This document shows positions 16,770-28,850 of a stretch of DNA of 64,000 bases, one piece after another. Source of the stretch: Candidatus Thiodiazotropha sp. 'RUGA' (GTDB lineage Bacteria > Pseudomonadota > Gammaproteobacteria > Chromatiales > Chromatiaceae); the NCBI GenBank assembly GCA_016842065.1, contig JAEPDS010000021.1, positions 1 through 64,000 of the forward strand. The letters are read 5' to 3'. Each line of letters starts with the position of its first letter. The stretch's first letter is position 1. The position numbers and the translations under genes were made by a program. Under the pieces are notes generated by a model. That model was not told where the DNA came from. It ran no database searches and saw only the letters and a list, made by a program, of their open reading frames with translations.

Positions 16770-16880
16770 TTGACAAATGGAAGTTTGAGTCGCGTCATTG
16801 GGCTGTAACATAAAGATGATTTGATAACGAAATAGCGCGTACAATAGAACGCACAACCACAACGAAAGGTGACTCCGAGT

Positions 16881-17408
16881 ATGACGACGAAGTCCATACA
16901 ACGACCTGAACCCGGTTTTGTCCACGGACTGTTTCTCTACCTGCTTGTGTTTGCACTCTGGATGTTGTTGGTCGGCAATCTGGACACAGCGGAGATGGCT
17001 GCCGGAGCGGTGGTCGCTCTGATTGTCACCCTGGCAAGCCGACCTCACCTCAGCATCCTCACCGGGCTGATCATTTCACCAGCTGCCCTGCTTCCATTGC
17101 TACGCTACCTCGGCACCTTTATCGTGGCACTGGTTCAAGCCAACCTCGATATGGCCCGGCGCGTACTAAGTCCTTCACTGCCTTTGCAACCAGCCGTAGT
17201 GGAGGTGGAGACCAAACTCAAATCACCGTTGGGCCGTCTGATTCTGGCGAACAGCATTACCCTGACCCCCGGCACCCTGACTGTCGATGTTCAGGACCAG
17301 GTGTTGTTGGTGCATTGGGTGGACTGTCCCCCAGGCAGTGATCTGGCATCTACCACTCAGGCCATTACCAGCAAATTTGAACAACACCTGAAAGGCTTCG
17401 TGTTATGA
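16881..17408 (+). CDS. mrpE: MrpE/MnhE-like subunit
   Basis: A 175-residue membrane protein of the Mrp antiporter E family: two or three hydrophobic segments in the first 80 residues (GLFLYLLVFALWMLLVGNLD, AAGAVVALIVTLAS) and a soluble C-terminal domain with the family's SPLGRLILANSITLTPGTLT followed by VDVQ. It is the first gene of the antiporter-oxidoreductase operon. In Mrp-linked complexes (Mbh, Mbs) the E, F and G subunits form the sodium-translocating part. I start at the ATG at 16881; a GTG at 16869 is also possible. It overlaps mrpF by 4 bases. Confidence 0.92.
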   Translation: MTTKSIQRPEPGFVHGLFLYLLVFALWMLLVGNLDTAEMAAGAVVALIVTLASRPHLSILTGLIISPAALLPLLRYLGTFIVALVQANLDMARRVLSPSLPLQPAVVEVETKLKSPLGRLILANSITLTPGTLTVDVQDQVLLVHWVDCPPGSDLASTTQAITSKFEQHLKGFVL

Positions 17409-17668
17409 CATTAACCCTATTGGAGATCGTGGCACTGGGCTTGCTGGGTGCTGCGGTATTACTCAGTCTGTTGCGCCTGATCCTGGGCCCCACAACCCCG
17501 GACCGGGTGGTTGCCGCCGATACCCTGGCGGTGATAACAACTTCCGGACTGGTGATCCTCGCCGCCCTGCTGGGTAGCCCACTCTATCTGGATGTAGCGC
17601 TGATCTACGGCACCTTGGCGTTTGTCGGTGTGGTCGCCATCGCCCGAACGATTGAGGGGAATGGCTGA
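17405..17668 (+). CDS. mrpF: MrpF/MnhF-like subunit
   Basis: An 87-residue, three-helix membrane protein. The family core LRLILGPTTPDRVVAADTLA is complete; the conserved GPxxxDRxxAxD is thought to line the cation path. It overlaps mrpE by 4 bases and touches mrpG, so it is translationally coupled to both. Confidence 0.93.
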   Translation: MTLTLLEIVALGLLGAAVLLSLLRLILGPTTPDRVVAADTLAVITTSGLVILAALLGSPLYLDVALIYGTLAFVGVVAIARTIEGNG

Positions 17669-17985
17669 TGAGACTGATTGCCGATCTGTTTCTTGTTGTC
17701 GGTGCCGCCTTCACCCTGTTCGGCGCCATCGGACTGATCCGTATGCCCGATGTCTATAACCGTATCCAGGCAGGCACCAAGGCGGTCACCCTTGGGTCGC
17801 TCTGCCTGTTGATCGGTATTGCTCTGCTCTACCCTGCCTGGTGGTCGAAGTTGCTGGTGATCGGCGTGCTGATTCTGATTACCAATCCACTCGGCTCTTC
17901 CACCATTGCCCGGGCACTGCTTAAGGCTGGGGTAAAGCCCTGGAGCAAAGCCAGCGTAAGCCAAGCAGGAGAGGCTGACCGATGA
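17668..17985 (+). CDS. mrpG: MrpG/MnhG-like subunit
   Basis: A 105-residue, three-helix membrane protein with the MrpG signature FTLFGAIGLIRMPDVYNRIQ followed by AGTKAVTLG. It works with MrpE and MrpF in the cation-translocating module. Its start overlaps the mrpF stop, and its end overlaps the next gene by 4 bases. Confidence 0.93.
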   Translation: MRLIADLFLVVGAAFTLFGAIGLIRMPDVYNRIQAGTKAVTLGSLCLLIGIALLYPAWWSKLLVIGVLILITNPLGSSTIARALLKAGVKPWSKASVSQAGEADR

Positions 17986-18293
17986 GTGAAGTAGAACTTT
18001 GGATTGCTCTGATCCTGGGCATCATGATGTTAAGCAGTGCGGTGCTGGCACTGGTGGTGAAAAACCATCTCGCTGCGGTAGCGGCCGCCTCTGTGGTGTC
18101 GCTCGGTTTGGCGCTGCTGTTTGCCCTGATGCGGGCACCGGATGTGGCGATGACCGAAGCGGCCGTGGGTGCCGGTCTGAGCAGTCTGATCCTGGCTTTG
18201 GCATTGCGCCGCCTGGGCTTGTGGCAGATCGATAGCGGCAGCGAAAACAGTAATCTGCTGAGCGCTTCAAGCAAGGGGAAAGACGATGCGTAA
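17982..18293 (+). CDS. MbhD/DUF4040-like membrane subunit
   Basis: A 103-residue, three-helix protein with the DUF4040/MbhD signature: KNHLAAVAAASVVSLGLALL and MRAPDVAMTEAAVGAGLSS. In canonical Mrp antiporters this piece is the C-terminal part of MrpA; in Mbh/Mbs-type complexes it is a separate gene, as here. That split is one of the features that places the operon with the membrane-bound oxidoreductase family and not with a plain Na+/H+ antiporter. The Asp and Glu of PDVAMTEA are conserved and membrane-buried. Confidence 0.88.
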   Translation: MSEVELWIALILGIMMLSSAVLALVVKNHLAAVAAASVVSLGLALLFALMRAPDVAMTEAAVGAGLSSLILALALRRLGLWQIDSGSENSNLLSASSKGKDDA

Positions 18294-18972
18294 TCTCACC
18301 GGCCTGTTGTTTGCCGGCGGCCTGGGTTTCATGCTTCTGGCGATTGCCAGCGGCATCGATTTCGGCACTCCGCCGATGCGCATCGGCGAAGCGATACAGT
18401 CCGCCTCTCCCCAGGAGGTCGGTGCTGCCAATATTGTTACCTCAGTGGTGCTCGGTTACCGGGGTATCGATACACTCGGGGAGCTCGCCATCCTGTTTGC
18501 CGCGGCATCGGCCGCCGGACTGGTGCTGGGTCGTCGGCATACCACCACGGGCACACAGCGCAAAGGTGGATTCGTACTCTTTCACGGTGGGGCTTTGATC
18601 TTTCCCTTTCTGCTGACGATCGGCTTTTACATCATCTTTCACGGCCATCTGACACCGGGTGGCGGATTTCAGGGCGGTGTGATTCTTGCCGCAGCCTTTT
18701 TCCTGCCCTTGCTGGCCAGGCCCGGCGCGCGCCTGCACCACTCCATTCTGAGTGTCATTGAAGCCTTCGCCGGCGCCAGCTTTATTCTCATCGGGCTTGC
18801 CGCCCTGGCCGAGGGGCAGGCATTTCTGCAACCGATGCTCAATCAGGATACCCTTGGCTCGCTGATATCGGCCGGCACCCTGCCACTGCTCTATATCGCA
18901 GTGGGTTTGAAGGTCGGTGCCGAGTTGGCCAGCCTGCTCTCCAATCTGGCACAAACGGAGTCTGAACAATGA
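18286..18972 (+). CDS. MbhE + MrpB fusion subunit
   Basis: A 228-residue membrane protein with two parts. Residues 1-85 match the MbhE-like end of MrpA (IVTSVVLGYRGIDTLGELAI). Residues about 95-225 are the MnhB domain with its core IFHGHLTPGGGFQGGVILAA. The same order (MbhD, then MbhE joined to MrpB) is seen where MrpA has been split in oxidoreductase-linked Mrp modules. It overlaps the MbhD-like gene by 8 bases and mrpC by 4. Confidence 0.88.
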   Translation: MRNLTGLLFAGGLGFMLLAIASGIDFGTPPMRIGEAIQSASPQEVGAANIVTSVVLGYRGIDTLGELAILFAAASAAGLVLGRRHTTTGTQRKGGFVLFHGGALIFPFLLTIGFYIIFHGHLTPGGGFQGGVILAAAFFLPLLARPGARLHHSILSVIEAFAGASFILIGLAALAEGQAFLQPMLNQDTLGSLISAGTLPLLYIAVGLKVGAELASLLSNLAQTESEQ

Positions 18973-19448
18973 TCCCGGGTGTGACACTTGAACTGATCCT
19001 CTATGTCACCGCCCTGGGGCTGGTGATTATCGGCCTCGCCGGTGTGGTGCTCAGCAGCCACCTGTTCCGCATGGTGCTTGCGCTGGTGATTGCCGAAGCG
19101 GGAGCCAACCTGATGCTGGTACTCTCCGGCTATCGCTGGGATGCGGTGGCGCCAATCCTGATGCAACGAGCCGAACAGCCGGCGATGGTCGATCCGGTTC
19201 CTCAGGCCATGGTGCTGACGGCGATCGTGATTGGCGTCGGCATCCAGGCACTGGCTGTCAGCATATTGATTCGTATCCGCCAGCGTTATGGCAACCTGAA
19301 GCGTCGTGAAGTGGCGGAAAAAATGGATGCTGAAATAGCCGCCAGTGCGGGAATCCGCAGGGACATCAGTCAGGATGCCCCACTCGGTGAGCGTCCCCTG
19401 TCACCGCTCCCGGCTCATACCGCAGAATCCCGAGGAGGCGACGCATGA
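18969..19448 (+). CDS. mrpC: MrpC / NuoK-like subunit
   Basis: A 159-residue protein. The first 100 residues are a NuoK/MrpC three-helix unit, with membrane Glu in LVIAEAGANLMLV and the MrpC-specific VDPVPQAMVLTAIVIGVGIQ. The C-terminal 50 residues are a polar cytoplasmic tail (RRDISQDAPLGERPLSPLPA) not usual in short MrpC proteins. It overlaps its neighbours on both sides by 4 bases. Confidence 0.92.
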   Translation: MIPGVTLELILYVTALGLVIIGLAGVVLSSHLFRMVLALVIAEAGANLMLVLSGYRWDAVAPILMQRAEQPAMVDPVPQAMVLTAIVIGVGIQALAVSILIRIRQRYGNLKRREVAEKMDAEIAASAGIRRDISQDAPLGERPLSPLPAHTAESRGGDA

Positions 19449-20917
19449 ACAACCTGGTGTTGACCATCGCCCTGCCTCTGCTTGGCGCCTTCTTACTGCC
19501 TGTGGTAATGCGTCTCTCCCAGGCTCTCGGCTTATGGCTCGGACCGATCATTCTGGGTTATGGCTGTTGGTTGTTGGGTAATCTCTGGTTTAACGACATC
19601 ACTCTGCCACTGTCGATTGCGCTTGGCGGATTCGATGCTCCCTATGGCATCAATCTCTACCTCGACTCTTTGGCCCTGTTGTTTGCCTTTGCTGTTCAGC
19701 TGCTGGGATTGATCTGCTGGCCCTATGTCTTAAATCAGGATACAGCCAGACGACAGGCCCTGATGCTGCTACTGGTTGCCGCCTCCACTGGACTGGCGCT
19801 CTCCGGAGACCTGTTCAACCTGTACGTCTTTTATGAACTGGCAGCTGTGGCCACTTTCGGGCTGGTGGTTGCTTCCACTACCTCGGCAGCCTACGCTGCA
19901 ACCTTTCGCTATCTGATCCTGAGCGGTATCGGTTCCGTCTTGACGCTGCTCGGTATCGCACTGATCTACAGTCAGACCGGCACCCTCAACCTGGCCCATC
20001 TGGCGCAGCTGGCCCCGGAACTGCTGCACGACAGACTCGGATTGACCGCCTACCTGCTGATCCTGATCGGTATCGGTGTCAAAGCGGAGCTGTTTCCGGT
20101 CAACGCCTGGGTACCCGAGATCTACGCCACCGCCTCCAGCCGGCTCTCCGGCTTCCTTGCTGGACTGTTGTCGAAACTGGCACTGCTGATCATACTGCGG
20201 CTGCTGGTGCTGATATTTGATCAGCCGGAAGCGGTACAGATCATTCTCATTCTCGGTATTCTCGGTGTCATCAGTGGTGAATTCGCAGCCTGGCGTGCCA
20301 AGGACATGCGGCGAATGCTCGGCTTCTCCTCGATCGGTCAGCTGGGCATTATCTTTATCGCCCTCTCCTTACCGGATGAGCGGGGGCTGTTGGCCCTGCT
20401 GGCACTGTCGCTTCACCATCTGGTGATCAAAACCGGACTCTTCATGCTGGCTGACGGCTGGGGTGGGTCACTCGAACGGTTGACCGGAGCGGCCAAACGG
20501 TCACCGGTTGGTGCGGCACTGTTTACCCTGTTCGCCCTCTCCCTGGTTGGTGTTCCCCCGCTGCCCGGCTTCTGGGCAAAATTCACCCTGATCACCGAAT
20601 TGGCTGCTCAGAGTGAGCCACTCTATCTGATCGGTCTGCTGGTATTTCTCTTGGCCACGGTTATCGAGACAAGCTATCTGTTCCGCATCGTGGCGAAGCT
20701 CTACAGTTCTGCCGAGACCACCACCGAACAGCCTGAGTATCAACACTTGCCCGGTCTCTCCCTGGCTACGGCTTCACTCTTTGGCATCACACTGCTGGCG
20801 GCAACGGTACTGATCGCTCCCATCGGTGATGGACTGCAAGCGATTGCGGCGGAGGCAAAGAATGCCGAGCTCTACATACAAACCGTGATACCGGTAACGC
20901 CCGGAGGCCAATTGTGA
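19445..20917 (+). CDS. mrpD: MrpD / NuoN-like antiporter subunit
   Basis: A 490-residue, about 14-helix proton-conducting antiporter-like subunit. The ion-path residues are present: Glu in NLYVFYELAAVATFGLV, Lys in GVKAELFPVNAWVPEIYA, and Lys in HHLVIKTGLFMLADG. The block LGFSSIGQLGIIFIAL is typical of the family. It overlaps mrpC and the next antiporter gene by 4 bases each, which suggests equal amounts are made. The role is to carry protons or sodium driven by the attached redox module. Confidence 0.94.
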   Translation: MNNLVLTIALPLLGAFLLPVVMRLSQALGLWLGPIILGYGCWLLGNLWFNDITLPLSIALGGFDAPYGINLYLDSLALLFAFAVQLLGLICWPYVLNQDTARRQALMLLLVAASTGLALSGDLFNLYVFYELAAVATFGLVVASTTSAAYAATFRYLILSGIGSVLTLLGIALIYSQTGTLNLAHLAQLAPELLHDRLGLTAYLLILIGIGVKAELFPVNAWVPEIYATASSRLSGFLAGLLSKLALLIILRLLVLIFDQPEAVQIILILGILGVISGEFAAWRAKDMRRMLGFSSIGQLGIIFIALSLPDERGLLALLALSLHHLVIKTGLFMLADGWGGSLERLTGAAKRSPVGAALFTLFALSLVGVPPLPGFWAKFTLITELAAQSEPLYLIGLLVFLLATVIETSYLFRIVAKLYSSAETTTEQPEYQHLPGLSLATASLFGITLLAATVLIAPIGDGLQAIAAEAKNAELYIQTVIPVTPGGQL

Positions 20918-22791
20918 TTTTCAGCCTATTGGATGAGCTTTTGATCTTTTCGGCTGCCACGGTACTGGTTGCCCTGATACTGGGTCGCGGTCTGGCGGTG
21001 GGCTGGATGGTCACCATTCTCTATGGTGGGCAACTGCTGGTCCTGATCAAGATGGCCGCACTGGGTTATGGTGGTGATCCCATCGCCTCCGAGTTAAGCC
21101 TTTCGGTGATGGGACAGGATCTCTCCTGGCGTTTCGATGCCCTGAGCTGGTTCTTTGCACTGATCACTCTGGTGGCGGCACTGCTCACCAGTTGGTTCTC
21201 ATGCGGTGAGTGGGAGCGGAAATTCAAACAGCAGAGGGGCAATGTCTGGCTGTTTCATCTGGCGATGGCGTTGAATGTCTTCACCATGTTGATCCTGCTT
21301 GCCAGCGGCGATCTGCTCTCTCTATTCATCGGCTGGGAACTGGTCAGTTGGGCGGGCTTCCTGTTGATGGCCGTTGCCGGTGGCGTTGCCACCAAGGCGG
21401 CCATACGTTACATCACCTATGCGGTTGTCGGCGGGATGTCGATCTTCGGTGGCATTGCACTGGTCTATGCGGCGGCCGGTTCCCTGCAGTACGAAGCCAT
21501 ATTGATCGCAGTTGAAAAAATGAGTACCGGCCAGCTCTGGATGCTGGTACTACTCTTCGGCAGCGGTTTCGGCATCAAGATGGGATTGCTCCCCTTTCAT
21601 CTCTGGCAGGCGGCCGCCTATGCGGAAACCCCAGGTCCCGGCAGCGCCTTTCTGGGTGCCATCTCTTCCCGCATGGGTCTGTTTGCCATTCTGCTGGTTT
21701 TGGTGAAACTGTTTGGTATCGTCAACATCGACAGCCTCAAAATCCCCTTCACCCTCATCGATGCCCGGGATCTGCTGGCCTGGATAGCGGTATTCACCAT
21801 CATCTTTCCCACCTATACCGCCCTGAAACAGAATGACGCTCGCTATCTGCTGGCCTGGCACGGTATCGGTCAGGGTGGTTACATGTTGCTCGGCCTGGTC
21901 ACCGCCAACTCCCTGGGGGCCGCCGGTGGTCTGCTGCATGTGCTGAACTATGCAGCCTGTCAGGCGGCGCTCTTAATGGCAGTATTTGCCGTCATGCATC
22001 GTACAGGCACGGCTGATCTGAATAAGCTGGGCGGCTTGGTTGCACGGATGCCCCTCTCCTTTCTGGTGCTGCTGACCGGCATCATCGGCCTGGCAGGCCT
22101 GCCTCCGATGAACGGTTTCGTCTCCAAATGGCTGGTCTATCGATCACTGCTTGAAGATGGCATGCCACTGCTTTTCCTCGGCACCATCATCGGCACGCTG
22201 GGCACCATCCTGTCGGTCTATAAGCTGATTCACAATATGTTTCTCGGCCAGCTGAGAGTGGAACACGAACAGGTTCGCGAAGCCCCCTGGAGCATGATGA
22301 CTCCGATGCTGATACTGGCCGGCACGATCTTCGTCACCGGACTGCTGCCCGGCATCCCGCTCACTTGGGTAAGCGCCGCACTGCAGACGATTGGTCTCAC
22401 TGGTCCCGAGATCACCCTCGGCGGTATCGAATCCTCCAGTGGCAGCCTCGATATGATCTGGGTGATCGGCGTGCTGTTTGCCGGCTTCGGTATCGGTGCT
22501 GTGATCTTCTACTCCGCCGGACCCAGTAAGCGGGTTCATCAGCTCGACAACTATGCTGGCGGTCACTTTCTCACCGCCGATGTGCGCTACCAGTACAGTG
22601 ATAACTTCTACTCCGGCCTGATGCATCTGATCCGTGGCTGGTATCGTGGCAGTTTTCAATGGCTGGAAAACAGCATTACCTCACTGGTCGAGTTTCTCTC
22701 CCTTGGCATGCAGGGTATCTACCGCCGTGCCAACTCTGAATTCTATCTGTTAAGTACGGCACTCTTCATAATTGCCTGGGTGGTTTTCTAA
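20914..22791 (+). CDS. Second NuoL/NuoM-like antiporter subunit
   Basis: A 625-residue antiporter-like membrane protein, longer than MrpD because of a C-terminal extension with an amphipathic stretch and a last helix (LLSTALFIIAWVVF at the end). Conserved Glu is in LFIGWELVSWAGFLLMAVAG and conserved Lys in GSGFGIKMGLLPFHLWQAAA. The block that usually reads N-H-A-x-F-K-A is here NYAACQAALLM, so the central lysine position is Gln350. It corresponds to the MbhH/MbxH' position between the Mrp subunits and the NuoH-like subunit. It overlaps both neighbours (last base of the stop is shared with the next ATG). Confidence 0.92.
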   Translation: MIFSLLDELLIFSAATVLVALILGRGLAVGWMVTILYGGQLLVLIKMAALGYGGDPIASELSLSVMGQDLSWRFDALSWFFALITLVAALLTSWFSCGEWERKFKQQRGNVWLFHLAMALNVFTMLILLASGDLLSLFIGWELVSWAGFLLMAVAGGVATKAAIRYITYAVVGGMSIFGGIALVYAAAGSLQYEAILIAVEKMSTGQLWMLVLLFGSGFGIKMGLLPFHLWQAAAYAETPGPGSAFLGAISSRMGLFAILLVLVKLFGIVNIDSLKIPFTLIDARDLLAWIAVFTIIFPTYTALKQNDARYLLAWHGIGQGGYMLLGLVTANSLGAAGGLLHVLNYAACQAALLMAVFAVMHRTGTADLNKLGGLVARMPLSFLVLLTGIIGLAGLPPMNGFVSKWLVYRSLLEDGMPLLFLGTIIGTLGTILSVYKLIHNMFLGQLRVEHEQVREAPWSMMTPMLILAGTIFVTGLLPGIPLTWVSAALQTIGLTGPEITLGGIESSSGSLDMIWVIGVLFAGFGIGAVIFYSAGPSKRVHQLDNYAGGHFLTADVRYQYSDNFYSGLMHLIRGWYRGSFQWLENSITSLVEFLSLGMQGIYRRANSEFYLLSTALFIIAWVVF

Positions 22792-23687
22792 TGGCACCGA
22801 TCGAACTTTTCATTGAGCTGACCCTGATGCCGTTGATTGCTTTTATCGTCGGCATGATGATGGTGCTGATGATGCGGCGTATTGCGGCAAGGATTCAACG
22901 TCGTATCGGACCGCCTTTCTTTCAGCCGCTCTATGACATCGTCAAGCTTCACGGCAAACGCACGCAGGTCTCACACGGCCTGATTCATGACATCGGAATC
23001 GTCATGGCGATGGGCGGCTACATTGCCGCAGAGACTCTGCTACCGGTACCCGGTATGAACGGCATCGCGGAAAAGGGGGGACTGATCACCCTGCTCTATC
23101 TGATGATGATTCCGTCCCTCGGCCTGGCGTTGGGTGTCGGTCAGTGTGCCAATCCCAATGGCTCGATCGGCATCGCCCGCGCGCTGACTGCGATGCTGGC
23201 CTATGACATTCCCTTGGTGATCGTCATCTTTGGCGTCGCCTATGCTGCCGGCACCACCAATCTGGTGGAGATCATCGCCACACAGCAGGCTGGTGGCTTC
23301 GCAACCTGGGGGGTGGTTGAGATGCCACTGCTGGCCATCGCCGGTCTGATCGCCATGCATGCCTCTCTGGGTAAACAGCCTTTCGAGATCTATATCGCCC
23401 CGGCTGAGATTGCCACCGGGCCGATGGTTGAGATGAGTGGTAAGTATCTGGGTGGCCTGTTCGTGATGCAGTGCTTCCAGCTCTACACCACCTCGGTTCT
23501 CTATGTGAGTCTGTTCCTCGGTGGTGGTACCACCTGGTTCGATTTTCTGATCAAGAGTTTTCTGGTGCTGGCCATTCCAGTGAGTATCGCCTACCTGTTC
23601 CCCCGTTATCGCACCGAGGATCTGTTGCGTCTGATGTGGAAATGGCCGGTGATACTGGGACTGATCGGCTTGGCTTTCGTAATGTGA
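22791..23687 (+). CDS. NuoH-like membrane anchor subunit (MbhM/MbxM-like)
   Basis: A 298-residue, eight-helix homologue of complex I subunit 1. It shows the family motifs RIQRRIGPPFFQPLYDIVKL and AEIATGPMVEMSGKYLGGLF and acidic residues in the loop facing the redox module. In complex I this subunit forms the quinone channel; in Mbh/Mbs complexes the homologue links the redox arm to the antiporters. It is followed by a 136-bp gap before the NuoB-like gene, the only long gap in this part of the operon besides the repeat element at 25.1 kb. Confidence 0.94.
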   Translation: MAPIELFIELTLMPLIAFIVGMMMVLMMRRIAARIQRRIGPPFFQPLYDIVKLHGKRTQVSHGLIHDIGIVMAMGGYIAAETLLPVPGMNGIAEKGGLITLLYLMMIPSLGLALGVGQCANPNGSIGIARALTAMLAYDIPLVIVIFGVAYAAGTTNLVEIIATQQAGGFATWGVVEMPLLAIAGLIAMHASLGKQPFEIYIAPAEIATGPMVEMSGKYLGGLFVMQCFQLYTTSVLYVSLFLGGGTTWFDFLIKSFLVLAIPVSIAYLFPRYRTEDLLRLMWKWPVILGLIGLAFVM

Positions 23688-23823
23688 ATTTGCGCCCGCA
23701 GGCTGTGTGTGGCGAGTCCTTGTGAAACAGTGATTGGCTCTCAAGGAAAGTGAATACCGGCAATGCCGGACTGACGAGCCAGTAGCGAAACACTACGGGC
23801 AAGTTAACCCAACGACTTTGGTG

Positions 23824-24543
23824 ATGGTTATGAGCAGATTACAAAAGATACCGGTAGTCGAAGAGAAAAAGGGCAATCCCCTGGCCCGGGTGTTCGATGA
23901 TTTGGTGCGCTTCTGCCGCTCGCGCTCCCTGTTCATTCTCCACTACTGTACCGGCTGCGGCGCGATCGAACTGCCGCCGGCGATGACCTCCCGTTTCGAT
24001 ATGGAGCGCCTTGGCATTCAACCCATGGTCTCCCCCAGACAGGCGGATATTCTGTTGATTACCGGCTATGTCTCGATCAAAACCCTGAAACGGGTGATCC
24101 TCACCTATGAGCAGATGGGTTCACCGAAATATGTCGTGGGGATCTGCTCCTGCACAGTCAATGGCGGCATGTACTGGCAGAGCTATGCAACCGCGAAAAA
24201 ACTCGATGAATATATGCCGGTCGATCTCTATATCGCCGGTTGCATGCCGAGACCCGAGGCGGTGATCAGCGGTCTGCAGAAACTGATGGATCGTATCAAG
24301 AACGGTGAAGCCGACAGTTGGCAGGACTACTACCGCAACTATGACTACTACCTGGGCAATCAACAGAAGCTGTTCGGCGAGGATTGGCAGACTCCCACTG
24401 ACATCATCACGGAAGCGAAACACTATGAGCTGATGGGTGAAGGTACCCTGGGTCAACACACCCGCCTGCTGGAGCAGCATCAGCAACCCCTGGAGGCCCT
24501 TGAGATGCGCCTCGGCCACAAACTCAAGGAGCCGGTTGAATGA
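23824..24543 (+). CDS. NuoB-like [4Fe-4S] subunit
   Basis: A 239-residue small-subunit homologue of NuoB/MbhJ that carries the [4Fe-4S] cluster next to the catalytic subunit. Cysteine ligands are visible in HYCTGCGAIE, VVGICSCTVNGG and YIAGCMPRPEA: the CxxC pair, one Cys, and the C-x-P-R-P-E motif. The true start is uncertain: ATG at 23824 and 23830 fit the family best, while earlier in-frame codons give a non-conserved leader. The C-terminal 90 residues (QDYYRNYDYYLGNQQKLFGE onward) extend beyond the usual core. It overlaps the NuoC-like gene by 4 bases. Confidence 0.92.
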   Translation: MVMSRLQKIPVVEEKKGNPLARVFDDLVRFCRSRSLFILHYCTGCGAIELPPAMTSRFDMERLGIQPMVSPRQADILLITGYVSIKTLKRVILTYEQMGSPKYVVGICSCTVNGGMYWQSYATAKKLDEYMPVDLYIAGCMPRPEAVISGLQKLMDRIKNGEADSWQDYYRNYDYYLGNQQKLFGEDWQTPTDIITEAKHYELMGEGTLGQHTRLLEQHQQPLEALEMRLGHKLKEPVE

Positions 24544-25109
24544 GTCAGCAAGTCGCCCATTGGCTGGACAATCTCCTGAAGGAGATCGAAGGCATCGAAG
24601 TTCGTCGTAAAAGCAGTCGTCGGGTGCGGGTTGATGTACCGGCGGATGCCCTGCCCGCTCTGTTGGAACTGCTGCAGGGACGAGCCGGCTATATCCATCT
24701 TTCCGCGATCAGCTGTGTCGACTGGATCGACGATGGCGAGTTTGAGCTGGTCTACCACGTCTGGTCCTATGAGAGTCACTCCCTGGTATCGGCCCATATA
24801 CGCATTGCCCGTGAACCCGGGGTCTATCTCTCGGTGTATGACCTCTATCAGCCCGCCGCCTTTTTCGAACGGGATATCCACGAGATGTATGGCATCCACT
24901 TCGAAGGCAGTCCCAATATGGAGAAGTTCATCCTCACCGAATGGGACGGTCCGCCACCGATGCGCAAGGAGTTCGACAGCGAAGCCTACATCAACGAGCA
25001 CCTGAGCTGGCAGGAGTACAACCCGGAGTGGCTACAGGAGCTGGTTGCCGAAGGGGGTGGTGTAATCATCCCGCCGGAAGAGCAGCGCTTCAGTCAGAAG
25101 AAGAAGTGA
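24540..25109 (+). CDS. NuoC-like (30 kDa) subunit
   Basis: A 189-residue homologue of the complex I 30-kDa subunit. The family pattern is clear: YQPAAFFERDIHEMYGIHFE, then WDGPPPMRKEF close to the C terminus. It is structural and docks the NuoD-like subunit; no cofactor is expected. Immediately after its stop the operon is interrupted by an inverted-repeat element, then the NuoD-like gene follows. Confidence 0.93.
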   Translation: MSQQVAHWLDNLLKEIEGIEVRRKSSRRVRVDVPADALPALLELLQGRAGYIHLSAISCVDWIDDGEFELVYHVWSYESHSLVSAHIRIAREPGVYLSVYDLYQPAAFFERDIHEMYGIHFEGSPNMEKFILTEWDGPPPMRKEFDSEAYINEHLSWQEYNPEWLQELVAEGGGVIIPPEEQRFSQKKK

Positions 25110-25118
25110 AGAGTTTTT

Positions 25119-25283
25119 GGTCCGCAAATGAACGCGAATAAACGCAAATGTTATTGATGGTTATTGGATTGCAAATGTATCACCCACTACGTCAATTGTT
25201 CCCAACTGAAGCTAGGGACACTTGCTTTGTTATAAGCGAGCTTCTTAATACATATGCGTTTATTCGCGTTCATTTGCGGACCC
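25119..25283. repeat. MITE-like element with 31-bp inverted ends inside the operon
   Basis: The 31-bp segment at 25119-25149 (GGTCCGCAAATGAACGCGAA..., 31 bp in all) returns as its reverse complement at 25253-25283 with one mismatch. The 103 bp between the arms are AT-rich and code for nothing. Non-coding, about 165 bp, with terminal inverted repeats: it looks like a MITE or a repeated intergenic palindrome. It lies between the NuoC- and NuoD-like genes, where the other genes overlap, so it is an insertion. The RNA could fold into a long stem and change expression of the downstream half. Confidence 0.8.
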
Positions 25284-25308
25284 CAATTTCAAAAACAAGC
25301 GAAATCAT

Positions 25309-26451
25309 ATGAGACCTGAGAATTACGAAGCCCAGCGCCAGCCGCCGAGTAATGAGTATGAACTCAATTTCGGTCCGAACCATCCGGGTATCGAAGGCAA
25401 CTATGCACTGAAGGTAAAGCTGCATGGCGATATCGTGCTGGAGGCCAAGGCGGATGGCGGTTATCTGCATCGGGGTTTTGAAAAACTGATGGAGCAGCGG
25501 CTGTGGATACAGAACATCGCCCTGGTGCCTCGTATCTGTGTGCCTGACCCTTCACCGATGGAGCTCTGCTACTCGATGGCGGTTGAAGAGTTGTGTGGCC
25601 TGAAAGTCCCGCAACGGGCTCAGTGGTTGCGGGTGATGCAGTTGGAGCTGTCACGCATCGCAGCCCATCTGTTCACCTTTGGCGGTCATGCGGCGACCAC
25701 CGGTATGTACAGCACCATGTATTGGGGCGTGGCCGACCGGGATCTGCTGCTCGATCTGTTCGAGGAGTTTACCGGTGGTCGGGTCTACAGCATCTACAAC
25801 ATCCCCGGCGGTGTGCGCCGGGAGCTGCCTGAAGGGTTCCTGCAACGCCTGACAGAAACCCTCGACTACATCGAGTCACGACTGCCTGACTACGATAACC
25901 TCTTCTTCAAAAACCAGGTATTCGTGAAGCGCGCCAAAGGCACCGGTGTGATGTCCCGTGAGCAGGCCTTGGAGTGGGGTGTCACCGGTCCCAATCTGCG
26001 CGCCACCGGGCTGGCCTTCGATGTACGCCGGGATGACCCCTATCTGGTCTACGATCAACTGGCGTTCGATATCCCGGTTGAAGAGAGCGGTGATGCCTGG
26101 GCACGTACCCTGGTGCGCCGCAAAGAGTTGATGGAGAGTATCCGCATCCTGCGCCAGGTGGTGGAGATTCTGCCTGACATCCATGGTCCGATTCGGGCAC
26201 CGATCCCCAATCCACTGGCCTGGAATGTCCCTGCCGGGGAGACCTACACCCGGGTTGAATCCTCCAAAGGGGAGCTCTGCTACTACGTAGTCTCCAATGG
26301 CGGCCCCAAACCCTACCGGGTGCATGTACGTGGCCCCTCCTCCATGCATGCGGTACAGGTACTGGAGAAGATGTCGGTCGGATCGCGCATCGAGGACATT
26401 GCCCAGACCATGTTCTCCCTGGATGCCTGTCCGCCGGAAGTTGACCGTTGA
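25309..26451 (+). CDS. NuoD-like large subunit with half-lost NiFe ligands
   Basis: A 380-residue homologue of complex I NuoD and of group 4 NiFe-hydrogenase large subunits. Family blocks: NFGPNHPGIEGNYALKVKLH, GGYLHRGFEKLMEQR, and the C-terminal SLDACPPEVDR. In hydrogenases two CxxC pairs bind NiFe. Here the N-terminal site is RICVPD (Cys77, Asp80) and the C-terminal site DACPPE (Cys374, Glu377), so one Cys of each pair is kept and the second position is acidic. The His that NuoD uses for quinone (in GPxHPxxHG) is Glu29. The subunit is therefore unlikely to bind NiFe or to reduce quinone in the usual way, and resembles the Mbx/Mbs type (sulfane or unknown acceptor). The last residues coincide with the hydrogenase processing point, but no C-terminal extension follows. 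Confidence 0.92.
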   Translation: MRPENYEAQRQPPSNEYELNFGPNHPGIEGNYALKVKLHGDIVLEAKADGGYLHRGFEKLMEQRLWIQNIALVPRICVPDPSPMELCYSMAVEELCGLKVPQRAQWLRVMQLELSRIAAHLFTFGGHAATTGMYSTMYWGVADRDLLLDLFEEFTGGRVYSIYNIPGGVRRELPEGFLQRLTETLDYIESRLPDYDNLFFKNQVFVKRAKGTGVMSREQALEWGVTGPNLRATGLAFDVRRDDPYLVYDQLAFDIPVEESGDAWARTLVRRKELMESIRILRQVVEILPDIHGPIRAPIPNPLAWNVPAGETYTRVESSKGELCYYVVSNGGPKPYRVHVRGPSSMHAVQVLEKMSVGSRIEDIAQTMFSLDACPPEVDR

Positions 26452-26470
26452 GATCTATGGGTAATCGCTG

Positions 26471-28327
26471 ATGTCCAAACCGATTGATGATGCCAAACTG
26501 AGCAAACAGAACGTGACGATCGAGCATGAGGAGGCCGGCTCAATCCTCAGCCCGCTCAAGGCACTGCAGTTTTTCATGCGCAAACCGGTCACGGTTCCGC
26601 TGGAACCCCGACCGGCGGCAGACAACTACCGGGGCTTTCATCTTAACGATCATGAAAAGTGCATTGGCTGCAGTTCCTGCCAGAAAGTGTGTGACAACGC
26701 AGCCATCACCATGGTCAAGGTTCCCCATCTGCCGGAAGATCCGATCAACGGCGTGCGCAATCTTCGCCCGGCAATCGATTATGGCCGTTGCTGCTGGTGC
26801 GCCCTGTGTGTCGACATCTGTCCGACCAGCGCTATCTCTCTCTCCCGTGAATATGTTCATACCTGTACTCAGGAGGAGATCGACAGTTATTTCATCCTAC
26901 CGGATGAAACCGGTATCCATGGCGAGTACTACGGTGAGGGGTGGCAGAAGACCAATGACTCCGATCTGCTCGATCTGAACCGACAGCCGATGGCAGAGTT
27001 GGAAGCCGAGGAGCGAATCGACAACTTCAATGAGATCGTTGCCGGTTACACCGATCAGCAGGCGGTGATCGAAGCCTCACGCTGCGTTCAGTGCGGTATG
27101 TGTCACGACGCCTGCCCAACCCATATGGACGCGCCCGAATATATCCGTTCGATCTGGCAGGGCAACCTGGAGGACGCAGTGCGCTGGATCTATCAGAGCA
27201 ACCCCTTCTCCCATGTCTGCGGCCGGGTCTGCACCCATCGTTGCGAAGATGCCTGCTCGATCGGCCGACGGGGTGAACCCGTATCCATCCGCTGGTTGAA
27301 ACGCTACGCCATGGATTCGGTGGATCATGAACGGATCAAGCAGATTGCTGCGGAGGGTAAAGCGGACTATCTGAGCGGCAAACAGATCGCCATTATCGGC
27401 GCCGGACCGGCCGGTCTCACCACCGCCTACGACCTGGTTCGCAAAGGGCATCAGGTAACGGTCTTCGAGGCTCGTAAGGAAGCGGGCGGTATGCCCCGTT
27501 ACGGAATTCCCGAATACCGCCTGCCCTACGACATGCTCGACCAGGACATCGATGTGATCACCTCCATGGGGGTGAAGATCCAGACCGGTATTCAGGTCGG
27601 TAAGGATATCACTATGGCGCAACTGGAAGCGGACTATGATGCGGTGGTACTGGCCATTGGTCTGCATCTTGGTCGCTCCACCCGGGTTCCCGGTGCTGAC
27701 CACAAACAGGTGCGCAAAGCGATCGATCTACTGCGCAGAACCACTGACGATGAAGCGTATGAGATTCCACAGAAGGCGGTTGTCATTGGTGGTGGTAACG
27801 TGGCGATGGATATTGCCAGAACTCTCGCCCGTCAACAGCAACAGCAGTTTGGTCAGGTTCAGGTGACGGTCACGGCATTGGAAGAGATGAGCAACTTTCT
27901 GGCTGACCCGGTGGAGATCAAAGAGTGTCGTGAGGAAGGCATTGAGATCTATGATGCACGAGGCCCCCAGGCCTGCATCATCAAAAACAACAAACTGATC
28001 GGACTGAAGACCTGGAAGGTCCGCTCCATCTTCGATGAGCAAGGTCGCTTCGCGCCGGAATATGATGAGCAGGATGAGCAGATTCACGCCGCTGACATGG
28101 TCATAGAAGCGATCGGTCAGATGTCGGATAACAATCTGCTTGGTGACGACCTGACGGAAGCCCTGGAGTGGCAAAGGGGCCGACTCAGTATCGATGGACA
28201 GGGTCGAACCTCAGTCGACTGGCTATGGGCCGCTGGTGATTGCGTCAATGGACCGGATGTGGTCCATGCCATCGCGGATGGTCATCGCGTGGCTGCCAGC
28301 ATCGATGAGTGGTTGAATCAGCAATAA
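26471..28327 (+). CDS. NuoI-like ferredoxin fused to NfnB/GltD-like flavoprotein
   Basis: A 618-residue fusion. Residues 60-120 are a NuoI-type double cluster: Cys64/67/70/74 and Cys107/110/113/117. Residues about 180-290 match the N-terminal Fe-S domain of NfnB, GltD and dihydropyrimidine dehydrogenase, with Cys205/208/211/215 and Cys250/254/258/262. From about residue 305 follow an FAD site (AIIGAGPAGLTTAYDLVRKG) and an NAD(P) site (AVVIGGGNVAMDIA), ending with WAAGDCVNGPDVVHAIADG. In an ordinary complex I these jobs belong to NuoI plus NuoE/F/G; here one polypeptide gives electron entry from NAD(P)H through FAD and several [4Fe-4S] clusters to the NuoB/D-like core. The reverse direction is also possible. 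Confidence 0.93.
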   Translation: MSKPIDDAKLSKQNVTIEHEEAGSILSPLKALQFFMRKPVTVPLEPRPAADNYRGFHLNDHEKCIGCSSCQKVCDNAAITMVKVPHLPEDPINGVRNLRPAIDYGRCCWCALCVDICPTSAISLSREYVHTCTQEEIDSYFILPDETGIHGEYYGEGWQKTNDSDLLDLNRQPMAELEAEERIDNFNEIVAGYTDQQAVIEASRCVQCGMCHDACPTHMDAPEYIRSIWQGNLEDAVRWIYQSNPFSHVCGRVCTHRCEDACSIGRRGEPVSIRWLKRYAMDSVDHERIKQIAAEGKADYLSGKQIAIIGAGPAGLTTAYDLVRKGHQVTVFEARKEAGGMPRYGIPEYRLPYDMLDQDIDVITSMGVKIQTGIQVGKDITMAQLEADYDAVVLAIGLHLGRSTRVPGADHKQVRKAIDLLRRTTDDEAYEIPQKAVVIGGGNVAMDIARTLARQQQQQFGQVQVTVTALEEMSNFLADPVEIKECREEGIEIYDARGPQACIIKNNKLIGLKTWKVRSIFDEQGRFAPEYDEQDEQIHAADMVIEAIGQMSDNNLLGDDLTEALEWQRGRLSIDGQGRTSVDWLWAAGDCVNGPDVVHAIADGHRVAASIDEWLNQQ

Positions 28328-28346
28328 CAGCAGGAGTGGCATCGCC

Positions 28347-28850
28347 ATGTCTGAAGGTCATAGCAGCAGTTACGACAGACTGAAATCGAAAAAAAGCCTG
28401 GCGGAGATTCTGGATGTTGCAATCGAGTTCGAACGTACCGCCCGGGACTTCTACACGGACCTGATTCCTAAAGTCAGTAAACAGATCCGCTATCTGGTAG
28501 AGGAGCTGGCAGAAGAGGAGCAGCGCCATTTCGATCTGTTTACCGAACTGAAAAACCGTCCCGATCTGGAGAAGCAGGTTCAAACCCTGGTGGAGATCCC
28601 GGCAAGCGATAAAAAGTTCTCCGATGCCATCCACCTTCCGGAACTGGGTGACAGGCCCGACGACCAGTCGGTACTGCAATATGCGTTAGGTCGTGAACAT
28701 GCGGCCATGGAACAGTACCATGCACTCGCCGAGAGCACCGGGGATGGTCCGATCAAGGAGCTGTTTCAATTCCTTGCCAATGAAGAGACGGAACATAAGA
28801 ACCAACTGGAAAAGGTCTATTACGAAACCATTCACAGTGGTGGAGTCTGA
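28347..28850 (+). CDS. Rubrerythrin-like diiron protein
   Basis: A 167-residue four-helix ferritin-like protein. Iron ligands: Glu in IEFERTARDFY, ExxH in AEEEQRHFDLF, Glu in GREHAAMEQY, and ExxH in NEETEHKNQLE, the rubrerythrin pattern. It lacks the C-terminal rubredoxin domain, so electrons must come from a partner protein. It lies 20 bp after the fusion gene and is probably in the same operon; a peroxide- or oxygen-scavenging role protecting the Fe-S complex is likely (inference). Confidence 0.88.
   Translation: MSEGHSSSYDRLKSKKSLAEILDVAIEFERTARDFYTDLIPKVSKQIRYLVEELAEEEQRHFDLFTELKNRPDLEKQVQTLVEIPASDKKFSDAIHLPELGDRPDDQSVLQYALGREHAAMEQYHALAESTGDGPIKELFQFLANEETEHKNQLEKVYYETIHSGGV

Follow-up and report, generated by a model that had tools for sequence, protein, structure and literature searches.

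The operon at positions 16881-28850 of a 64,000-nucleotide stretch of the genome of Candidatus Thiodiazotropha sp. 'RUGA' (contig JAEPDS010000021.1, positions 1 to 64,000, referred to here as the window) consists of thirteen genes on the same strand with a rubrerythrin-like gene behind them. It probably encodes a Na+/H+-coupled NADH:sulfane-sulfur oxidoreductase of the MBS/Mbx type, a reading drawn from sequence in which we place moderate confidence and in which NADH-dependent reduction of stored sulfur is the likelier use of the complex. We infer its NADH preference, cluster ligation, substrate, coupling, and direction as follows. An outer-cluster subunit of the MbsN/NuoI type, carrying two [4Fe-4S] clusters, would be fused to an NADH-binding flavoprotein with FAD and iron-sulfur (Fe-S) clusters, with electrons passing between NADH and FAD and then along the fused protein's own four [4Fe-4S] clusters, ending at the proximal cluster of the NuoB-like subunit. 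This proximal [4Fe-4S] cluster, predicted to be site-differentiated with three cysteine ligands, would make or break S-S bonds in polysulfide or other forms of sulfane sulfur within a chamber of the NuoB-, NuoD-, and NuoH-like subunits, and the reaction would be coupled to two antiporter-type pumps and the Mrp Na+/H+ module. NADH-driven reduction of stored sulfur or polysulfide would conserve energy when sulfide or oxidant is short, and plentiful sulfide would favour the opposite flow, in which the ion gradient pays for moving electrons from sulfane or sulfide to NAD+. As the working potentials are close, the machine should be reversible.

The genes of the operon, identified by NCBIfam and Pfam family searches, and the repeat lying between two of them are as follows, with best matches among solved structures given by Protein Data Bank (PDB) chain.

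16881..17408, + strand: MrpE-like (family search; an alternative GTG start at 16869 is possible)
17405..17668, + strand: MrpF-like (family search)
17668..17985, + strand: MrpG-like (TIGR01300, above cut-off)
17982..18293, + strand: MbhD-like (PF13244)
18286..18972, + strand: fused MbhE+MrpB (PF20501, weak at 22 bits against a Pfam cut-off of 27, and PF04039)
18969..19448, + strand: MrpC-like (family search)
19445..20917, + strand: MrpD-like antiporter subunit, MbsH equivalent (PDB best 6u8y_H)
20914..22791, + strand: NuoL/M-like antiporter subunit, MbsH' equivalent (PDB best 6u8y_X)
22791..23687, + strand: NuoH-like membrane anchor, MbsM equivalent (PDB best 6u8y_M)
23734..24543, + strand: NuoB-like, proximal [4Fe-4S] cluster subunit, MbsJ equivalent (PDB best 6u8y_J; loop spacing)
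24540..25109, + strand: NuoC-like, MbsK equivalent (PDB best 6u8y_K)
25110..25308, no strand: 199-base palindromic dispersed repeat, outside the conserved operon (repeat and fold analysis)
25309..26451, + strand: NuoD-like, MbsL equivalent (PDB best 6u8y_L; tree)
26471..28327, + strand: fused NuoI/MbsN and NfnB-like flavoprotein, NADH predicted (family, PDB, fold, cysteines)
28347..28850, + strand: rubrerythrin-like di-iron protein, conserved neighbour (PF02915)

All 14 open frames are present in an open reading frame (ORF) check, and nine of the 13 junctions are overlaps of 1-8 bases, the remaining four being gaps of 46 bases (NuoH/NuoB), 199 bases (NuoC/NuoD), and then 19 and 19 bases. A preliminary description of the stretch, made from its letters and ORFs, had given this co-oriented order from MrpE to the fusion with rubrerythrin last and most genes overlapping by 1-8 bases, which the ORFs and family searches bear out, and it was also right in noting the absence of NuoE, NuoF, and NuoG, none of which was found among the 14 operon genes by either means. 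By subunit naming, the MrpE-, MrpF-, and MrpG-like proteins are the equivalents of MbsA, MbsB, and MbsC, and the MbhD- and MrpC-like proteins those of MbsD and MbsG. The fifth gene joins MbhE- and MrpB-type parts, and MbsE likewise gives helices to both membrane modules of MBS (PMC7684303).

Kinship with MBS

Seven of the 13 subunits were compared by sequence with all solved structures, with the other six placed by Mrp and Mbh family models only. For all seven, the best solved relative of the same subunit type is a chain of PDB entry 6u8y, ahead of complex I and MBH; this entry is MBS of Pyrococcus furiosus, although its chains are listed only as NADH dehydrogenase subunits. The NuoD-like subunit scores 397 bits with 6u8y_L, compared with 269 for Nqo4 and 132 for MbhL, and the NuoB-like subunit scores 235 bits with 6u8y_J (next 126) in an alignment ungapped across 168 residues. 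The NuoL/M-like (6u8y_X, 168 bits, next 126), NuoH-like (6u8y_M, 184 bits, next 70), MrpD-like (6u8y_H, 211 bits, next 148), and NuoC-like (6u8y_K, 73 bits, next 42) subunits follow, with the NuoI part of the fusion scoring 82 bits with 6u8y_N and 50 with the next NuoI-type chain, and NfnB-type chains scoring higher over the remainder of that protein.

A tree of NuoD unites MbsL with the clade of the window (type I) and a divergent one (type II) at a support of 100/99, and sets them apart from Nqo4, MbhL, HycE, and the canonical NuoD proteins of the same genomes. The tree holds 47 rows, of which 21 are type I (a chosen subset, including the window), five type II, and 14 canonical NuoD, and it is without Fpo, Ehr, or Thermotoga rows. 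MbsL stands beside type II at 95/77, with its exact place there unsure because the tree program flagged long branches, MbsL among them. A third NuoD-like protein, with 28–29% identity to that of the window, is found in loci L115, L116, and L117 (genomes G229, G108, and G187, respectively); in the tree it falls beside HycE, and its C-terminal end reads CNKSVNGSYSG or CNKSVNGAYSG in place of a Ni-ligand motif. The preliminary description had suggested trees of the NuoD-, NuoB-, and antiporter-like subunits, and of these the NuoD tree was run, with the NuoB- and antiporter-like subunits compared with solved structures instead. Its view of the operon as a relative of Mbh, Mbx, and Mbs stands, and can be refined in that the NuoD-, NuoB-, NuoC-, NuoH-, NuoL-, and MrpD-like parts point to a single characterised family, MBS.

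MBS of P. furiosus has 13 subunits (PMC7684303), and its likeness to the window operon extends from 13 matching genes (seven compared and all nearest MBS, six matched by Mrp/Mbh naming only) to the length of the cluster loop, the retained MbsL cysteines, and the replacement of the quinone residues. The window operon differs from MBS in three ways: an NADH-type flavoprotein of ~440 residues is added to its MbsN-type subunit, a rubrerythrin-like gene follows it, and its sampled hosts are Pseudomonadota with dsrA, whereas MBS belongs to an anaerobic archaeon that reduces sulfur. As the MbsN-type subunit is fused here to an NfnB-like flavoprotein, whereas that of MBS is unfused with ferredoxin as the donor, we file the operon as a variant of MBS/Mbx.

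Proximal cluster, chamber, and NADH arm

MBS lacks the Nqo4 quinone residues H38 and Y87 and retains two of the four Ni-ligand cysteines, C85 and C385, with its proximal cluster held by three cysteine ligands, since the loop is three residues shorter than that of MBH, and one iron of this cluster is free to act on polysulfide (PMC7684303). The type I NuoD-like proteins have E29 at the place of H38, V78 at that of Y87, and C77 and C374 at the places of MbsL C85 and C385, all in 51/51 rows, and the type I NuoB-like proteins have C72, C75, C140, and C170 in 45/45 rows. Rows shorter than 80% of the window protein were left out of these tallies and of that for the fused protein, and the Thiodiazotropha group, window included, contributes 14 of the 51 NuoD-like, 11 of the 45 NuoB-like, and 15 of the 63 fused rows. 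The cluster loop, counted from S to D, is 25 residues long in the window and in MbsJ, compared with 28 in MbhJ and HycG, and the 25-residue loop recurs in 44/44 type I rows (43 by script, and L078, with A for S, by eye) and 5/5 type II rows. In type II, the first Cys of the loop pair, a non-ligand in MBS (PMC7684303), is lost from the NuoB-like protein (5/5), and the NuoD-like protein lacks C374 and carries T where type I has E29 (5/5), with the RICV motif carrying C77 matched in three of the five and the other two not matched by that pattern. This retention of the ligand cysteines while others drift is, in our view, the strongest sequence evidence for an MBS-type chemistry. A structure model of the NuoB-like protein was too weak for use, with a mean predicted local distance difference test (pLDDT) of 64 and a cluster loop below 50.

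The fused protein is NuoI-like at residues ~23–145, with room for two [4Fe-4S] clusters, and from ~180 to 618 comprises Fer4_20, with room for two more, and FAD/NAD domains; its 17 clustered cysteines, sufficient for four [4Fe-4S] clusters, are all present in 63/63 rows. The family NF010590 (PRK13984, putative oxidoreductase) matches it nearly end to end (818 bits, positions 9–609 of 611; below the curated cut-off of 946, which one of 14 named control genomes passes), so curators already recognise an architecture of this kind, though with no function attached. Matches to NfnB/NfnL, GltD, and dihydropyrimidine dehydrogenase cover the C-terminal ~440 residues, and the top fold match of an AlphaFold2 model is the NfnI large subunit (5jca_L, TMt 0.82), the model having a mean pLDDT of 77.5 and being good in the FAD/NAD part and poor at residues 1–44, 130–139, 166–176, and 260–271.

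NfnB binds the NADP phosphate via a YRR motif, and YRR-bearing DsrL enzymes are said to prefer NADP(H) (PMC7596348, PMC6405883). In the window protein this place reads A-L-E, with no Arg at either place in 63/63 rows and E last in 60/63, and YRR is also missing from the six rows L123–L128; with YRR replaced, NADH rather than NADPH is the predicted nucleotide. The fusion to an NAD(P)H flavoprotein put forward in the preliminary description is thus upheld by the NfnB-like fold and the family matches, with the nucleotide narrowed to predicted NADH. In fold and in Fe-S/FAD/NAD(P) layout, the C-terminal two thirds of the fused protein resemble NfnB/NfnL and DsrL, but the window protein differs from NfnB and DsrL-2 in the replacement of their YRR, in its fusion to a NuoI-type domain, and in having no NfnA in the operon (none among the 14 genes; the remaining genome was not searched for NfnA).

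Spread, gene order, and genomic setting

Sixty-five named loci were collected via the fused gene. The full 13-gene order is kept in 36 and a further 13 are edge-cut and consistent with it, so the arrangement is conserved far beyond chance; 16 loci are other. Four of these 16 (L050, L055, L079, and L080) are also edge-cut, L080 being a short locus of Ca. Endoriftia with the fused gene, a nuoD-like piece, and a rubrerythrin-like gene. L049 has the NuoB-, NuoC-, and NuoD-like genes and the fusion, but different genes upstream, and L076 has the genes from MrpE to NuoL with no match to the NuoH-, NuoB-, NuoC-, and NuoD-like genes ahead of the fusion. The other ten (L065–L068, L070–L072, L074, L083, and L085; titles Parabeggiatoa, Venteria, Thiomargarita, and Thiotrichaceae) have the fusion without other core genes directly ahead, L072 being cut 0.6 kb ahead of the fusion and so not judgeable. 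In L071 (Thiomargarita nelsonii) the fusion and rubrerythrin pair follows chemotaxis-like genes (by eye), with the nuoH-like gene 6–7 kb downstream, and L085 has its nuoH-like gene placed likewise, so that the genes of the complex are scattered in these two loci. The type II loci L123–L126 and L128 keep the operon order, with MrpD and the NuoL-like subunit in a single 1045-residue frame in L123.

The fused gene is found in 13 of 321 genomes of a class sample (E <= 1e-180) and six of 398 genomes of a phylum sample (E <= 1e-150), with dsrA (TIGR02064) found in 102 and 53 of them, respectively, and in all 18 different fused-gene genomes of both samples. Fisher tests of this co-occurrence, which treat the genomes as independent though they are related, give p 1.9e-7 for the class sample (by genus 12/12, p 6.5e-7) and p 4.3e-6 for the phylum sample (p 3.2e-5 with the own genome removed), and a dsrA matched by TIGR02064 may be of either direction. 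A further 23 genomes of window kin with a fused-gene match lie outside the dsrA test, except G039, which is in the class sample. The named hosts include tubeworm symbionts, Lamprocystis, Thiohalocapsa, Thiobacillus, Parasulfuritortus, Gallionellaceae, Parabeggiatoa, and Thiomargarita, with many others being metagenome-assembled genomes with broad names. Canonical NuoD is present in 12/12 further class genomes, in 11 of which the MBS-like NuoD adjoins the fused gene, lying on another contig in the twelfth (G314). Of the 18 fused-gene genomes, rnfC is present in 16 and nifH in seven.

The window is part of contig C21, in a genome of 4.77 Mb that also has a separate canonical NuoD (contig C73) and matches to nifH and rnfC. 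The nearest named relatives of its fused gene are those of the Stewartia floridana clam symbiont (99%) and Ca. Thiodiazotropha taylori (98%), and 20 of 21 other genomes of the genus have the gene, G017 having none and G011 having it split in two pieces. This genome carries two distinct dsrA-family genes (C23:52896-54095 and C4:153942-155144) and four rnfC matches above cut-off (C14, C64, C98, and C37), one nearly full length and the others partial.

The rubrerythrin-like gene lies within 3 kb after the fusion in 61/65 loci. Its product has a near-invariant di-iron-ligand-like pattern (E29, E57/E58, H61, E117, E147, and H150) and no Pfam match to a rubredoxin domain, and is weakly matched by PRK12775, a GltD-like domain fused to a ferritin domain, hinting that such flavoproteins may feed di-iron scavengers of peroxide or O2. 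In L127 (G620) a single open frame runs through the fused flavoprotein and the C-terminal part of the rubrerythrin-like protein, with the NuoI-like start apparently frameshifted, and this is either a real fusion or a decaying gene.

The 199-base insertion between the NuoC- and NuoD-like genes has perfect 24-base arms at 25123-25146 and 25255-25278, an RNA fold of -75.6 kcal/mol (z -8.85), and 46 forward and 44 reverse matches in the genome at <=3 mismatches (control 0 and 1), and may influence expression of the genes downstream of it. Other Thiodiazotropha have a small ORF of 121 residues between the nuoD-like and fused genes (L025 9632-9997, L027 9639-10004, and L032 9635-9997), the product of which, judged by look, is presumably a four-helix-bundle protein.

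Direction, rival readings, and meaning

The standard potentials are about -320 mV for NAD and about -270 mV for sulfur/sulfide. By our estimate, NADH-driven reduction could pump about two ions at low internal sulfide, and the reverse reaction would be possible with a normal gradient at millimolar sulfide. Of the acceptors left open by the preliminary description, sulfur is favoured by the residues and the dsrA distribution. Our lean to the reductive direction stems from the Riftia symbiont, in which, according to a 2024 paper (PMC11636981), a putative Mrp-Mbx shares first neighbours with the group of the reductive tricarboxylic acid cycle (rTCA). Hydrogenases, V-type ATPases, dissimilatory nitrate reduction, and sulfur globule proteins likewise share theirs with rTCA, whereas reverse dissimilatory sulfite reductase (rDSR), Sox, bc1, and F1-ATPase share theirs with the Calvin-Benson-Bassham cycle (CBB).

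Several observations weigh against an NADH-driven sulfane reductase. Since NADH and sulfane differ little in potential, reduction by NADH can drive pumping only when sulfide is low, and most sulfur-oxidation genes of the Riftia symbiont neighbour CBB rather than rTCA (PMC11636981). Of the 102 class genomes with dsrA, 89 show no match to the fused gene at the E-value threshold applied, so sulfur oxidation by rDsr can do without it. A survey of 53 loci (17 near-duplicates dropped; ORFs of at least 90 residues, clusters common to at least three loci), judged by eye with no family search, found no sulfur-role gene among the recurrent neighbours of the operon, the largest clusters looking like its reverse-strand shadows and the rest like local or signalling genes. 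Furthermore, in registers taken from alignments to the 6u8y chains, the NuoL-like R253 stands at the place of MbsH' K248 (44/44), the MrpD-like K213 at that of MbsH E219 (44/44), and mostly L or V at that of MbsH H330 (H in 2/44), with the place of MbsM E104 taken by M in 48/48 NuoH-like rows and that of E193 by Q in 43/48. Other positions are kept, namely E142, K222, H342, and K405 of the NuoL-like subunit (each 44/44), E131 (43/44, one gap), K379 (44/44), K244 (42/44, R in two), and H325, at the place of MbsH H334 (43/44), of the MrpD-like subunit, and E199, E206, and E214 of the NuoH-like subunit (each 48/48). Rows shorter than 85% of the window protein were left out for the NuoL-, NuoH-, and rubrerythrin-like proteins. 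Judged from these alignments, most putative pump residues are conserved, with some real changes along the charged axis.

The same complex might instead run mainly in reverse, with the ion gradient pushing electrons of sulfide or persulfide to NAD+ and so giving NADH for CO2 fixation past the quinone pool, which we regard as possible, though distinctly less probable. The dsrA in every fused-gene genome of the two samples and the origin of the window genome in a lucinid-symbiont lineage speak for this direction, as do the small uphill step from sulfide to NAD+ and the canonical NuoD of the window genome and the 12 further class genomes, the presence of which implies that complex I is not the missing function. 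In contrast, the Mrp-Mbx of the Riftia symbiont goes with rTCA and the anaerobic group and not with CBB, rDSR, Sox, or sqrA (PMC11636981).

An unlikely alternative is a converter between ferredoxin and NADH, in which the gradient would drive electrons from NADH to ferredoxin, so serving rTCA enzymes or nitrogenase, or else NAD+ would be reduced by ferredoxin with pumping in the manner of Rnf. The best fold match is Nfn, and rTCA, with which the Riftia-symbiont complex shares first neighbours, needs reduced ferredoxin (PMC11636981), but rnfC is already present in most fused-gene genomes, nifH in only seven of 18, and in such a converter the MBS-type cluster and chamber, conserved as they are, would have no substrate. 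A ferredoxin supplier dedicated to nitrogenase was dropped on the same nifH count.

A quinone-reactive variant of complex I with a substitute NADH module is less likely still. The overall plan, the homology of the NuoB, C, D, H, I, and L/M subunits, and the complex-I-like chamber agree with it, and the NuoD-like protein passes PRK06075 (445 bits, cut-off 360). However, the operon is without NuoE, NuoF, and NuoG and has Mrp E, F, G, and B, the quinone-site His and Tyr are replaced in every type I row, the NuoD tree separates the window clade from complex I, and each of the 13 genomes examined, the own genome included, has a canonical NuoD as well; ordinary complex I was dropped on the quinone residues, the tree, and this separate NuoD. 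A [NiFe]-hydrogenase-like complex of the MBH kind, to which the Mrp-linked layout and the two kept Ni-ligand cysteines (C77 and C374) would point, has almost no probability and was dropped, as the other two of the four are gone, C374 is lost too in type II, and MbhL stands far down the list of NuoD relatives. A plain Mrp antiporter beside an unrelated operon was dropped on the conservation of gene order over whole loci.

The predicted complex has named relatives. One is the MBX of Thermotoga maritima, the gene cluster of which presumably includes a flavoprotein gene. A paper on it (PMC9431562) describes a predicted 13-subunit sulfur oxidoreductase homologous to MBS, with its mbxA transcript up with sulfur, and differs from our reading in predicting ferredoxin as the donor; the comparison with the window is by description only. 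The 2024 paper lists the putative Mrp-Mbx of the Riftia symbiont, probably the same complex as that of the window operon, among complexes of unknown function or direction, so the complex is not previously unseen, although the part of that paper available names it only, mentioning neither the fused NADH module nor the spread (PMC11636981). Within the literature searched, the term Mrp-Mbx was found in this paper only. No account of the NADH fusion, of an MBS-type cluster in these hosts, or of the link to dsrA was found, in a search outside which most subscription literature lies. Reviews from the Adams group may treat bacterial Mbx.

The authors of the MBS paper present MBS as connecting Mrp, MBH, and complex I in evolution (PMC7684303). 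An MBS-type complex that is complete, has an NADH arm of its own, and is tied to dsrA points to a further route by which a core of this kind became joined to NADH, through a flavoprotein unlike NuoEF. We suggest, tentatively, a direct, ion-coupled, and quinone-free link between sulfane sulfur and NADH, in which one reversible machine might tap and refill the sulfur store and set the NADH level; if true, this would mean cheaper reducing power for CO2 fixation at high sulfide and energy from stored sulfur in anoxia. The same gene set recurs in other sulfur-oxidising bacteria, with the fused gene also found, by record titles, in isolates such as Parasulfuritortus cantonensis LSR1 and Lamprocystis purpurea DSM 4197, and the old question of how autotrophs that oxidise sulfur connect their stored sulfur with NADH becomes testable on one operon.

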